From Candidatus Methylomirabilota bacterium (GTDB lineage Bacteria; Methylomirabilota; Methylomirabilia; Methylomirabilales; JACPAU01), in the NCBI GenBank assembly GCA_016180705.1, contig JACPAU010000198.1, positions 1 through 11,330 of the forward strand: 11,330 nucleotides of DNA. The letters are read 5' to 3'. Under the pieces are notes generated by a model, which saw only the letters and a list, made by a program, of their open reading frames with translations, ran no database searches and was not told the origin of the DNA. The position numbers and the translations under genes are program-made. Shown here one piece after another: positions 5,462 through 10,276 of the stretch. Each line of letters starts with the position of its first letter. Positions within the stretch are counted from its first letter, which is position 1.

Positions 5462-5465
5462 CCTC
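5462..5465 (-). promoter_or_regulatory. Ribosome binding site deciding the aminotransferase start
   Basis: GAGG on the minus strand lies 5 nt before the ATG at 5456. It overlaps the alternative GTG at 5462-5460, so the ATG is the better start. Confidence 0.55.
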
Positions 5466-5512
5466 GCTCAGGCGGGACGGAACCTTGTGGCCGTCTTCAC
5501 AATGCGGCGGAA

Positions 5513-5541
5513 ATCACACCACATCGGGTAGGGGAAGTCAA
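5513..5541 (-). promoter_or_regulatory. Sigma70-type promoter of the aminotransferase-serA-hisZ-purA operon
   Basis: On the minus strand, TTGACT (5541-5536, 5 of 6 match to the -35 consensus) is followed after exactly 17 nt by TGTGAT (5518-5513, 4 of 6). A TG dinucleotide one base before the -10 gives an extended -10. Transcription would begin near 5506, leaving a leader of about 50 nt before the aminotransferase ATG. I see no riboswitch or leader peptide in that short leader. Confidence 0.6.
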
Positions 5542-5603
5542 GGCGCAAGCCGGCCGCCGCGAGGGCCCGGGAGGCGCCCGCGCCGCGCCGGCGCCCATTT
5601 TCG

Positions 5604-5632
5604 TTGAGCGGGACCGGGGAGTGTGCTAGCGT
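5604..5632 (+). promoter_or_regulatory. Promoter of the selenoprotein-transporter unit
   Basis: TTGAGC (5604-5609, 4 of 6 to the -35 consensus), a 17-nt spacer, then TAGCGT (5627-5632, weak -10) with TG at 5624-5625 giving an extended -10. It faces away from the minus-strand promoter at 5513-5541, so the two units are divergently transcribed. The -10 itself is poor, so confidence is moderate. Confidence 0.45.
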
Positions 5633-5667
5633 CCGGGGCCGACCGCGCGCGGGCGAAGGAGCGAGCG

Positions 5668-5672
5668 GGAGG
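5668..5672 (+). promoter_or_regulatory. Ribosome binding site of the selenoprotein gene
   Basis: GGAGG in a purine-rich run ends 6 nt before the ATG at 5679. It fixes this start over the TTG at 5604 and over the in-frame ATGs at 5691 and 5700. Confidence 0.65.
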
Positions 5673-5678
5673 GGGGAT

Positions 5679-6221
5679 ATGCGGCACCCGATGGGACCGA
5701 TGCGGCAAGGCCGGTCGGCATGCCTGGCAGGTCTCCTCGTGGCGGGCGTGCTCCTGGCGGAGATCCTTCTCGGCGCGCCCGTCGGAGCGGCGGCGCCGGC
5801 GGAGGGGGATCCGGCCCCCGACTTCGCCCTCACGCTCTTCTCGGCCAAGGCCTTCCGCCTCAGCGACCTTAAGGGCAAGCCGGTATTGGTGAACTTCTTC
5901 GCCTCCTGGTGACCGCACTGCCAGCGGGAGGCTCCCGCTCTGGTCTCCGCCTACCGGGCATACAGCGACCGCGGGGTGGAGTTCGTCGGGGTCAACGTCT
6001 TCGACAAGGAGCCGGACGGCCGCCGCTTCATCCGGGAGCGCCGGATCCCTTACCCGGCGGGCTTCGACCAGGGCGACCGGATCGCCGCCCTGTACGGGGT
6101 TGAGGGGACGCCGACCAGCGTGTTCATCACCCGATCCGGCCGCGTGATGGTGATCCAGGTGGGGGCGATGGATGCCGCCACCCTGCGGGAGGCCCTGGAG
6201 CGGCTCCTGAAGGCCAGGTGA
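5679..6221 (+). CDS. Exported TlpA/ResA-like thioredoxin, selenocysteine-containing (TGA at 5910-5912 read as Sec78)
   Basis: A predicted extracytoplasmic thiol-disulfide (here selenol-thiol) oxidoreductase of 180 residues. Residues 1-39 form a Sec-type signal peptide: arginines, a hydrophobic core at about 16-35, and a likely cleavage site after A-A-A. The mature part has the TlpA/AhpC-TSA start D-P-A-P-D-F-A-L, the L-K-G-K-P-V-L-V-N-F-F-A-S-W strand, then the in-frame TGA, then P-H-C-Q-R-E-A-P-A-L. The TGA replaces exactly the first cysteine of W-C-x-x-C, giving Sec78 and Cys81. Beyond it the frame continues to the cis-proline loop G-T-P-T (143-146, Pro145) and the final helix. Cys81 is the only mature cysteine. 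A SECIS-like hairpin follows the TGA. The real stop overlaps the next gene's GTG by 4 nt. The redox partner is unknown. A conventional caller would split this into 5679-5912 and a downstream fragment. A nonsense mutation or base error (TGC to TGA) is the alternative. Confidence 0.85.
5910..5945 (+). promoter_or_regulatory. Putative bacterial SECIS element with the Sec UGA codon
   Basis: After the TGA at 5910-5912, AGCGGGA (5923-5929) pairs perfectly with TCCCGCT (5933-5939), leaving apical loop GGC (5930-5932). The loop begins 17 nt after the UGA and carries G in its first two positions. Both fit the relaxed bacterial SECIS consensus (loop about 16-37 nt after UGA, with a conserved loop G). 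A lower helix GACC (5911-5914) with GGTC (5942-5945) would take up bases of the UGA codon itself, broadly like the E. coli fdhF element. An alternative pairs GCC (5920-5922) with GGT (5942-5944). Both are drawn by eye; no folding energy was computed. SelB would bind this hairpin to deliver Sec-tRNA. Confidence 0.75.
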
Positions 6222-7135
6222 GCCGGACCGCGCGCGGCACCCTCCTGGTCGTGGTCGCCGCCGCGTGCTGGGGTGCCTTCAGCACGGTGGCCAAGGTCCT
6301 TTTCGTCGAGGGCGCGGTCACCCCCCAGGCCCTCGCCGGGATCCGGGCCGCCCTGGCCGTGAGCCTCCTCCTCCCGGCCCTCCTTCTCTGGAACCCGGCC
6401 CTCCTCCGGATCCGCCCCGCCGACCTCCCCGTCCTGGCCTTCCTGGGGATCGCCGGGATCGCGATAAACAATTTTTTCTACCTGACCACGATCAGCCTCA
6501 CCGCCGTCGCCACCGCCGTCCTCCTCCAGTACATGAGCCCGATTCTCGTCGCCTCCTATGCTGTGGTTGTGGAGCGCCGGCCCCTCACCGGCCGGCTGCT
6601 CTCGGCCCTCGCCGCGGCCGTGGCGGGCTGCGCCCTCGTGGTCCGGGGCTACAACCCGGCGGCCCTCCGGCTGAGCCTCCCGGGGCTTCTCACGGGCCTC
6701 GGCGCCGCAGTCTTCTTCGCCGTCTACACCGTCGTCAGCCAGCGGGCGCTCGGGCGGCTCGATTCCTGGACCCTGCTCACTTATGCGTTCGGGTTCGCCG
6801 CCCTCTTCTGGTTCCTCCTGACCCCCCCGTGGGTCCTCCTGGCGGGGCACCCCCCGCGCGTCTGGGGGCTCCTCCTGCTCTTCGCCGGCCTGGGGACCGC
6901 CGTCCCCTTCGGCCTCTACCTGCGCGGCCTCACGCACGTCCCGGCCGTCACCGCCCAGATCGTGAGTACCCTGGAGCCGGTCGTGGCGGCGGCCGCCGCC
7001 TTCCTGGTCCGGGGGGAGGGGCTGGAGGCCCTGCAACTCCTGGGGGGCGGCCTGGTCCTCGGGGCGGTGCTCCTGGTCCAGGAAGTCCCTGGTGGCACGG
7101 CTTCTGCACCCTGCGCCGGCCATACGACCACGTAG
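6218..7135 (+). CDS. EamA-family (drug/metabolite transporter superfamily) membrane transporter
   Basis: An inner-membrane permease of 305 residues with about ten hydrophobic segments arranged as two EamA repeats (roughly 8-143 and 154-288). Each repeat ends in the family's P-rich signature: Q-Y-M-S-P-I-L-V (104-111) followed by V-E-R-R in the first half, and S-T-L-E-P-V-V-A (250-257) followed by R-G-E in the second. Substrates across the family range from amino acids and other metabolites to drugs, and none can be assigned here. The GTG start overlaps the selenoprotein stop as GTGA, with a weak AAGG at 6210-6213, so it is likely translated by coupling. No promoter of its own is visible. The last 15 residues or so beyond the final helix are not conserved-looking. 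Confidence 0.9.
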   Translation: MSRTARGTLLVVVAAACWGAFSTVAKVLFVEGAVTPQALAGIRAALAVSLLLPALLLWNPALLRIRPADLPVLAFLGIAGIAINNFFYLTTISLTAVATAVLLQYMSPILVASYAVVVERRPLTGRLLSALAAAVAGCALVVRGYNPAALRLSLPGLLTGLGAAVFFAVYTVVSQRALGRLDSWTLLTYAFGFAALFWFLLTPPWVLLAGHPPRVWGLLLLFAGLGTAVPFGLYLRGLTHVPAVTAQIVSTLEPVVAAAAAFLVRGEGLEALQLLGGGLVLGAVLLVQEVPGGTASAPCAGHTTT

Positions 7136-7154
7136 GGGATGCCGGCTCGAGGGG

Positions 7155-7171
7155 GTCGGCCCGGGGCCGAC
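7155..7171 (+). terminator. Hairpin after the transporter gene, possible terminator without a U-tract
   Basis: GTCGGCC (7155-7161) pairs perfectly with GGCCGAC (7165-7171) across a 3-nt loop. It lies 19 nt after the transporter stop and just ahead of the next promoter. The following bases (GGGTCTT) are not a T-run, so it is at best an atypical terminator or a 3'-end stabilising stem. Confidence 0.35.
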
Positions 7172-7176
7172 GGGTC

Positions 7177-7205
7177 TTGGCGGCGCCGTCGCGTTAGGGT
7201 ATAAA
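7177..7205 (+). promoter_or_regulatory. Promoter of the isoprenyl transferase-polX unit
   Basis: TTGGCG (7177-7182, 3 of 6 to the -35 consensus), a 17-nt spacer and TATAAA (7200-7205, 5 of 6 to the -10 consensus). AT-rich stretches are rare in this GC-rich DNA, which makes the -10 stand out. Transcription would start near 7212. Confidence 0.6.
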
Positions 7206-7230
7206 TTCCACAGTGGCCGCTGAGGTAGGT

Positions 7231-7235
7231 GGAGG
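7231..7235 (+). promoter_or_regulatory. Ribosome binding site of the isoprenyl transferase gene
   Basis: GGAGG lies 10 nt before the ATG at 7246. It favours that start over the in-frame GTG at 7213, which would coincide with the predicted transcription start. Confidence 0.5.
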
Positions 7236-7245
7236 GCACACCGCG

Positions 7246-8025
7246 ATGCTGGGACTCGGGCTGCTGTACCGGCTGTACGAGCGGCGCCTGCTCCGGGAGG
7301 TCCGGGGCGGGGTCATGCCCCGGCACATCGGCCTCATCCTGGACGGCAACCGGCGCTACGCCCGGGAACTGGGCTTCAGCGACCTCCTGGAGGGGCACCG
7401 GCGCGGGGCGGACCGGCTCGAGCGGGTCCTCGACTGGCTGGAAGAACTCGAAATCCGGATCATCACCATCTACGTCCTCTCCACCGAGAACCTGTCGCGT
7501 CCCCCCGAGGAGCTTCAAGCGCTGCTCGGCCTGATCGAGGCCAGGATGCGGAGCGTCGCCACGGACCCGAAGATTCACGCGAAGGGGGTGCGGGTCCGGG
7601 CCGTCGGGCAGCTCGACCTCTTGCCCCGGTCCGTCCAGGACGCGATCCGCGCCGCCGAGGAGGCCACCGCGGCCTACGGGAGCTTCTTCCTGAACATCGC
7701 CGTCGGCTACGGCGGCCGGCAGGAGATCGCCCACGCCGTCCAAGCCCTGCTCCTCGACCGCTCGCGGCGGGGGATGAGCCTCGAGGGGGCCGCCGCCGAC
7801 GTCACCCCGGAGGCGATCGGGAAGTACCTGTACACCTACGACCTGCCGGACCCCGACCTCATCATCCGGACGAGTGGGGAGTTCCGCCTTTCGGGCTTCC
7901 TCCTCTGGCAGTCGGCCTACAGCGAGTTCTACTTCTGCGATGCCTACTGGCCCGCCTTCCGGAAGATTGACCTGCTCCGGGCGGTCAGGGCCTATCAGCA
8001 GCGCAAGCGGCGCTTCGGCACATAG
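7246..8025 (+). CDS. uppS: cis-Prenyltransferase (isoprenyl transferase, probable undecaprenyl diphosphate synthase)
   Basis: Adds isopentenyl diphosphate in cis to an allylic primer, most likely making the undecaprenyl diphosphate carrier for peptidoglycan and other envelope glycans. It is a soluble, membrane-associated enzyme of 259 residues, close to the family's 240-260. Motifs: P-R-H-I-G-L-I-L-D-G-N-R-R with catalytic Asp33, S-T-E-N-L-S (79-84), Y-G-G-R (155-158), R-T-S-G-E-F-R-L-S (208-216), S-E-F-Y-F with Glu227, and the C-terminal R-R-F-G. D-G-N-R-R-Y replaces the D-G-N-G-R-W of E. coli UppS, a variant shared with some actinobacterial and eukaryotic or archaeal enzymes, so chain length is not certain. 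There is a short N-terminal amphipathic extension (L-G-L-L-Y-R-L-Y-E). No cdsA or dxr follows, unlike the common uppS context; polX follows after 57 nt. Confidence 0.93.
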   Translation: MLGLGLLYRLYERRLLREVRGGVMPRHIGLILDGNRRYARELGFSDLLEGHRRGADRLERVLDWLEELEIRIITIYVLSTENLSRPPEELQALLGLIEARMRSVATDPKIHAKGVRVRAVGQLDLLPRSVQDAIRAAEEATAAYGSFFLNIAVGYGGRQEIAHAVQALLLDRSRRGMSLEGAAADVTPEAIGKYLYTYDLPDPDLIIRTSGEFRLSGFLLWQSAYSEFYFCDAYWPAFRKIDLLRAVRAYQQRKRRFGT

Positions 8026-9811: not shown

Positions 9812-10276
9812 GTGCACGCGGCCCGCCTGCTCCTGCTCGCCGCCCTGACCGGTTGGGTCCTCTGGCGCGTCCTGTGGGCGGACCTGCCCGCCCTGCCGCT
9901 GCCGCCTGCCCTCGCCGCGCAGCGCGGAGCGCGGGCCGCCGCCGCCGTCCTCGCGGCCGCGGTCGTGGCCGCGGGGTGGATCGGGGCGCTGCGCAGCGGG
10001 ATCCGGCGACGGGCGCGCGCCCTCGCGGACCGGGCGGCCGCGGCCGAGGTCGGGCTGGATCCGGAGCGGGTGCGGGCGGCGGCCGCCGGCCGGCAGGTCC
10101 CCTGCCCCGCCTGCGGGAAGCCGGTGGCGGTCCTGAAGGCGGCGCGCTGCGCCTATTGCGGCACGGCCTTCAGCCCGGAGGCCCGGGAGGCGATGGCGGC
10201 CACCCGAGAGGCGATCCTCCGGGACCTCGAAGCCGCCGAGGAGAACGATGGAAGGAACGGCGAGGCTGTGGTATAG
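9812..10276 (+). CDS. Small membrane protein with C-terminal CxxC-CxxC zinc ribbon, unknown function
   Basis: I do not recognise a named family. The 154-residue product has two likely transmembrane helices (about 3-22 and 43-60) followed by an arginine-rich stretch (I-R-R-R-A-R, 64-69), an Ala-rich helix, and a zinc ribbon with Cys98-x-x-Cys101 and Cys113-x-x-Cys116 (C-P-A-C ... C-A-Y-C-G). It ends in an acidic helix. The basic segment after helix two suggests by the positive-inside rule that the ribbon faces the cytoplasm. The GTG start lies 7 nt after the polX stop, with GAGG 5 nt ahead (9803-9806) overlapping that stop, so it is probably co-transcribed with polX. Its final codons contain the promoter of the next gene. 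Codon use matches the neighbours, supporting a real gene. Confidence 0.75.
   Translation: MHAARLLLLAALTGWVLWRVLWADLPALPLPPALAAQRGARAAAAVLAAAVVAAGWIGALRSGIRRRARALADRAAAAEVGLDPERVRAAAAGRQVPCPACGKPVAVLKAARCAYCGTAFSPEAREAMAATREAILRDLEAAEENDGRNGEAVV

Follow-up and report, generated by a model that had tools for sequence, protein, structure and literature searches.

Selenoproteins carrying a U-x-x-C motif have been catalogued before. The available portions of PMC13188914 and PMC9312934 tabulate them under the Prx-like PF00578 domain, the cd02966 thiol-disulfide isomerase-like group and the PF08534 redoxin domain, and the former, a 2026 review, cites in its available portion a genome of the Methylomirabilota in which 63 selenoprotein genes are predicted. 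The kind of protein considered here is already known, UxxC selenoproteins of the TlpA/Prx-like type being part of these catalogues; the likeness, drawn from the same portions by domain and motif alone, consists of common Pfam domains and the UxxC motif, and the set described below differs in forming a clade of its own within one order, marked by the pattern S-x-U-[PS]-x-C-[QR]. The cysteine-based ResA/CcmG/TlpA proteins have in common with it the fold, the position of the redox pair, a glutamate (Glu84 in our numbering), the cis-Pro position and an N-terminal hydrophobic segment, whereas in the present protein selenocysteine (Sec) would replace the first Cys and a Thr, instead of the Leu of the two ResA chains shown, precedes the cis-Pro. 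Its score against the model of ResA proper (NF002854) is 106.8 bits for a cut-off of 170. The WAxxUGC_long profile NF041054 also describes a ResA-like domain, and a selenoprotein by its motif name, but it extends over 354 positions with a U-G-C motif, and our protein reaches 51.9 bits against its cut-off of 300. A search of literature titles, with most subscription journals outside its reach, returned none on TlpA selenoproteins of this order. What is new is an order-wide set of orthologues whose SECIS is locked, another two Sec candidates in the same genome, and an apparent Sec-to-Cys reversion that lacks the hairpin.

The gene lies in an 11,330-nucleotide stretch of DNA (hereafter the window) from an environmental bacterium belonging to NC10 (Methylomirabilota). 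From sequence comparisons we conclude that its UGA at 5910-5912 is almost certainly decoded as Sec. Its product is highly probably a selenoprotein of TlpA/ResA fold that is exported or anchored in the membrane, and in which Sec78 is read by means of the SECIS and serves a redox role.

Gene, fold and predicted chemistry

The features of the gene are as follows:
5668..5675, + strand: Shine-Dalgarno-like purine-rich stretch upstream of the ATG, judged by eye
5679..6221, + strand: gene for a predicted Sec-containing TlpA/ResA-like thiol-disulfide oxidoreductase, with ATG start, 180 residues and stop TGA at 6219-6221
5679..5792, + strand: putative signal peptide or membrane anchor (hydrophobic N-terminus, by eye; the AlphaFold2 model has a helix at 19-30 with low confidence)
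5910..5912, + strand: TGA, predicted Sec78, in the place of the nucleophilic Cys in W-U-P-H-C
5919..5921, + strand: Cys81 (TGC), the resolving cysteine
5928..5930, + strand: Glu84 codon GAG, the same in 37/37 TGA rows of relatives (see below), within the SECIS and aligned with the Glu of ResA WCxxCxxE
6111..6113, + strand: Pro145, the cis-Pro position in the ResA alignment, preceded by Thr144

The frame at 5679-6221 (+) contains exactly one internal stop, the TGA of codon 78, with 102 sense codons beyond it in the ORF reading, and two Pfam domains score over cut-off in the read-through product, PF00578 (2.2e-26, residues 43-157) and PF08534 (2e-23), both spanning the TGA. These two results bear out the claim of an earlier note that a lone TGA interrupts an otherwise intact frame. 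The same note had placed this TGA on the first Cys of a W-C-x-x-C motif with the second Cys and the cis-Pro intact, and a sequence comparison with structure chains agrees: among solved structures ResA chains come closest (E 1.8e-24), residue 78 is aligned with the first Cys of their WCxxC, and Cys81, Glu84 and Pro145 are also in register. The promoter-like sequence that it had reported was not recovered, a sigma-70 scan of 5463-6300 finding none in a region where shuffles also expect none, so that the scan has little power. Sixteen NCBIfam models were listed for the read-through protein, none at its cut-off. The AlphaFold2 model, made with 20 family members, has a mean pLDDT of 87.4, every block of ten residues from 41 onward reaching at least 95, and residue 78 stands immediately before helix 79-98. 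Across 20 aligned rows, columns 66, 73, 76, 78, 81, 83, 84, 86 and 145 are invariant. The protein has a thioredoxin fold whose first long helix begins at the redox pair, and it has the Glu and the cis-Pro; together these features place it with the TlpA/ResA/CcmG-like group (cd02966).

The product is very likely a thiol-disulfide oxidoreductase acting outside the cytoplasm. In the mechanism that we propose, SelB and Sec-tRNA(Sec) would decode the UGA as Sec, guided by the hairpin 17 nt downstream, and the protein would be exported or anchored in the membrane, as its hydrophobic N-terminus suggests by eye. The Sec78 selenolate, which heads the active-site helix, would then attack a substrate disulfide outside the cytoplasm, Cys81 would resolve the mixed intermediate, and the selenenylsulfide would be re-reduced, probably via a membrane carrier of the CcdA/DsbD type. 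Such carriers (DsbD_TM) were found in G002 and G003, which are the two near-complete assemblies among the four of the genus; no DsbD_TM match was seen in the window's genome (G000) or in G001. The usual substrates of the family are apocytochrome c and copper-site thiols.

A net reductase direction has a slight edge in our estimate, which was lowered a little because Thr144 is not common to the ResA chains shown; the ResA-like fold and Glu84 favour it, and the DsbA-like P-H dipeptide would either point away from a reductase or lower the pKa of the nucleophile. Two ResA chains among the solved relatives carry WCPHC and WCEHC, and we take these to be engineered variants. The protein might instead be an oxidant or isomerase of the DsbA/DsbG kind, or a thiol peroxidase, which we consider rather unlikely. 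The P-H dipeptide between the redox residues is held in common with DsbA, His occupies the second dipeptide place in 30/37 TGA rows as in CPHC, the motif of most DsbA proteins according to the available part of PMC4460558, the top Pfam match is AhpC-TSA, and Thr144 is absent from the ResA chains shown. These points are countered by ResA being the best solved relative, by the invariance of Glu84 across the 20 rows and by the Thr preceding the cis-Pro, which the same part of PMC4460558 reports in many reductants. No DsbA model appears among the Pfam and NCBIfam matches of the read-through protein, and the secondary structure of the AlphaFold2 model has no large helical insert, two further differences from DsbA.

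Gene neighbourhood

Directly downstream of the gene, the window contains:
6218..7135, + strand: EamA-family transporter (Pfam), with a GTG start that overlaps the Sec gene's own stop (GTGA)

Since this GTG start overlaps the stop, the transporter is likely to be translationally coupled to the Sec gene. The overlap lends itself to another reading, in which Sec is real and the TGA acts mainly as a selenium-dependent switch: without selenium, translation would stop after codon 77 and less of the coupled transporter would be made. An EamA neighbour (cluster c13) also occurs in 4/20 regions of relatives as delimited by a crude ORF picker. Against this reading, polar effects are expected of any selenoprotein gene in an operon, and the active-site position of the codon favours a catalytic role; we regard a switch as very unlikely to be its main function.

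The other neighbours backed by Pfam are a hisZ-like gene (PF13393), an aminotransferase (PF00266), PolX and OmpA domains; purA, serA and uppS were named by inspection, as were ubiD, rex and nuo genes near the f6 copies. Of the seven f3 genomes among the matches listed, five were fetched, and in each of these the Sec gene is flanked by clusters c2 and c10. No hint of a functional partner or substrate was found in the gene neighbourhood of the window and of the relatives. Between PolX and the OmpA-domain protein, a 154-amino-acid frame at 9812-10276 (+) carries two C-x-x-C pairs, resembles a zinc ribbon and has no Pfam match. One tRNA was the only Rfam match in the window at the gathering cut-off.

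The TGA codon, its predicted SECIS hairpin and the Sec machinery

A search of 99 genomes with the read-through protein returned three matches from the same genus (70-77% identity), each with one TGA, and the next six best matches, all from the window's order, likewise carry one TGA. A set of 50 distinct rows was then aligned at codon 78, matches not covering this column being dropped and identical 150-nt contexts merged: 37 rows (30 genomes) have TGA, 11 TGC and 2 TGT, a ratio of 37:13 that is not a frequency, as the rows come from 30 returned loci and 20 places picked mostly for a flagged stop, with most Cys matches left out. One TGA row (G046) comes from outside the window's order. The order is represented by 35 genomes (G000-G034), and at least 30 of them have a TGA copy, 29 by the codon column and G020 by a SECIS match; among the matches listed, none was seen for G004, G006, G019, G021 and G033. 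A search with the pattern WCPHCQRE, which requires a Cys codon, gave no sequence titled NC10 or Methylomirabilota among the best 80 of 314 stretches encoding relatives. A TGA that lies in frame at the site of a conserved redox Cys, with TGA in some relatives and Cys in others (37 and 13 rows), is the pattern by which a selenoprotein is recognised.

The TGA is one base away from TGC and the assembly is broken into 302 contigs and 63.9% complete, so that a single mutation or miscall of TGC or TGT could in principle have produced a dead gene or a wrong sequence. This reading has a negligible probability: the TGA is shared across the order as described, and a miscall is not credible because it recurs at one codon in 30 genomes. 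The frame has no second internal stop, dN is lower than dS beyond the TGA in 10/10 pairs compared, and the codons beneath the hairpin are nearly frozen in the 37 TGA rows. The question of whether relatives have TGA or TGC/TGT at codon 78, or random disruptions, is answered in the same direction by the shared column and by the dN and dS values.

The reading of codon 78 as Sec is further supported by a hairpin just beyond it:
5923..5939, + strand: predicted bacterial SECIS hairpin, with a 7-bp stem (5923-5929 with 5933-5939) and the loop GGC (5930-5932), 17 nt after the TGA

The bacterial SECIS model given in the available part of PMC13188914 has a loop of 3-9 nt, an upper stem of 4-16 bp, a G among the first two bases of the loop, a distance of 16-37 nt after the UGA and an MFE of -7.5 or lower. 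The hairpin in the window lies within all of these bounds as they stand in that part, with its GGC loop, 7 bp, 17 nt and a fold energy of -14.8 kcal/mol for 41 nt. In all 37 distinct TGA rows a stem of 6-8 bp, capped by a G[G/U]Y loop of 3 nt, stands exactly 17 nt past the TGA; at the same place the 13 Cys rows can form a stem of only 0-2 bp, and none has the hairpin. Codon 6 after the TGA is GAG in 37/37 TGA rows, and codon 7 ends in T in 37/37.

Covariation was assessed on 33 distinct rows. Bases are paired in 98.7% of 231 cells, compared with 92.9% after shuffling, and pairing falls to 39.0-54.5% when the partner strand is slid. Double changes occur in 14 cells as opposed to 3.1 in shuffles (0/500 shuffles as high, with related rows treated as independent and kinship ignored), and compensatory two-sided changes are found at 4/7 stem pairs; the number of further pair types, a weak measure of covariation, was matched by 51/500 shuffles. 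Synonymous redrawing of codons from an uncontaminated pool gave such a stem at the fixed 17-nt place in 0.06-3% of draws per row, values that likewise ignore kinship, and with a pool containing the hairpins themselves the observed stem was reached in 5-92 of 300 draws when any place within the permitted range was counted. Taken alone, the hairpin of the window shows no unusual stability given its composition (z of -0.61, -0.19 and +0.39 for three stretches). The generic rule of stem, loop and spacing also passes 10/13 Cys rows, and therefore only the fixed geometry and the covariation discriminate. Both stand against a chance hairpin, which we rejected. The predicted SECIS is the strongest single evidence for Sec decoding.

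A covariance model of the hairpin was built on the 37 TGA rows, so its matches to those rows are circular. It gave 12 matches beyond them, ten of which were read: seven lie in TlpA-like TGA frames (two by BLAST, five by eye), and L212, L213 and L214 are weak matches that do not. The remaining two are the Cys row L036 and the unread G010:C54. Six TGA-containing SelD loci (L058-L063) have a SECIS-like hairpin 33 nt after the TGA, with a 9-bp stem and a GTG loop in 6/6 loci read; SelD of this order is thus itself a predicted selenoprotein, and the 17-nt form is not the only SECIS of the order.

The window's genome contains selA (583 bits) and a tRNA-Sec (76.7 bits; SeC in ARAGORN, anticodon tca), together with a partial selB that starts at a contig end (profile positions 147-578; 174 bits, below the cut-off of 242). 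Of the sel genes expected in the genome, selA and tRNA-Sec are thus present and selB is there in part; selD was not found in the 63.9%-complete assembly and is present, with its own TGA, in 3/3 genomes of the same genus (G001-G003). No selA turned up in G001, an assembly that is 64% complete. More widely, tRNA-Sec is over cut-off in 81/99 genomes searched, selA is present in 84/99 and selB in 17/21, the window's own being included each time, and selD is over cut-off in 40/41, with the window's genome as the sole exception. The interpretation of the TGA as Sec put forward in the earlier note is accordingly supported by three lines: the 37 TGA rows, the covarying hairpin at 17 nt, and selA with tRNA-Sec in the genome.

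TGA has been reassigned to Trp in some bacteria. Such a reassignment or near-cognate suppression, giving W-W-P-H-C, is extremely improbable here, because TGA acts as a stop at the ends of the Sec gene (6219) and the PolX frame (9802), while codon 78 occupies the place of the catalytic Cys of other rows and is accompanied by tRNA-Sec, SelA and the covarying hairpin downstream. Both this reading and that of a pseudogene or miscall were rejected on the relatives, dN < dS, the TGA stops, the machinery and the hairpin.

Candidate paralogues, a putative Cys reversion and database annotation

A tree was computed from 80 rows, comprising the 50 rows of the codon column and 30 database proteins. Its main clade (97/84) holds 33 Sec rows and one Cys row, and a second clade (99/96) holds the Sec rows L086, L098 and L100 with one Cys row, L102 standing apart. 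The Sec/Cys label needs five changes on the tree, four of them forced by starred branches. The Cys row nested in the main clade, L036 (G016:C155:8115-8585, minus strand), reads S-N-C-P-H-C and lacks a stem where the SECIS would be; it is most simply explained as a putative reversion from Sec to Cys. About 270 bases from L036 there is a selD match without TGA, in a 773-amino-acid open frame that is perhaps a fusion.

In the window's genome the covariance model of the hairpin points to two further candidate Sec genes. L209 (G000:C299:7724, plus strand; TGA at 1501) would encode a Sec TlpA paralogue with S-W-U-P-F-C, 38% identical to the window protein over 129 residues, and has an identical 17-nt hairpin. 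L216 (G000:C52, minus strand; TGA at 2097) is a third candidate of TlpA type, with T-W-U-P-D-C and 36% identity, and its hairpin differs from that of the window. In another genome, L022 (G022:C59, about 6600-7830) appears to hold two Sec TlpA genes in tandem.

In the database searches, close relatives appear only as fragments without the active site. The whole read-through protein gave 100 matches, none above 47% identity, the 47% match spanning only 26% of the query; its 81-residue C-terminus gave 25 matches, all of 76-92 amino acids and 72-97% identical. The searches admit lengths of 0.55-1.75 times the query, about 100-317 amino acids for the whole protein and about 45-142 for the C-terminus, and each could show only its own length class. 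The prediction that gene callers would leave a headless fragment is matched by 25/25 of the C-terminal matches, and the five fragments read start within the gene, past the SECIS. One of the 25, P0122, is labelled a TlpA family protein from candidate division NC10, today's Methylomirabilota. This amounts to a systematic annotation error, in which Sec TlpA proteins are recorded as headless C-terminal fragments.

L036, a Cys row without hairpin inside a Sec clade, offers a natural experiment on the evolution of the SECIS. A broader picture, which we put forward tentatively, is that an extracytoplasmic thioredoxin set of this order may have shifted to selenium. Each genome would have several TlpA paralogues with Sec at the same column, a near-frozen SECIS would, in the main lineage, constrain the active-site residues Q-R-E-[AS]-P, and a Sec-based disulfide relay would operate outside the cytoplasm, combining a ResA fold with a DsbA-like U-P-H-C and escaping recognition as annotation splits the genes. 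NC10/Methylomirabilota is the phylum of nitrite-dependent methane oxidisers, and our findings point to a redox chemistry in these bacteria that depends on selenium and takes place outside the cytoplasm.
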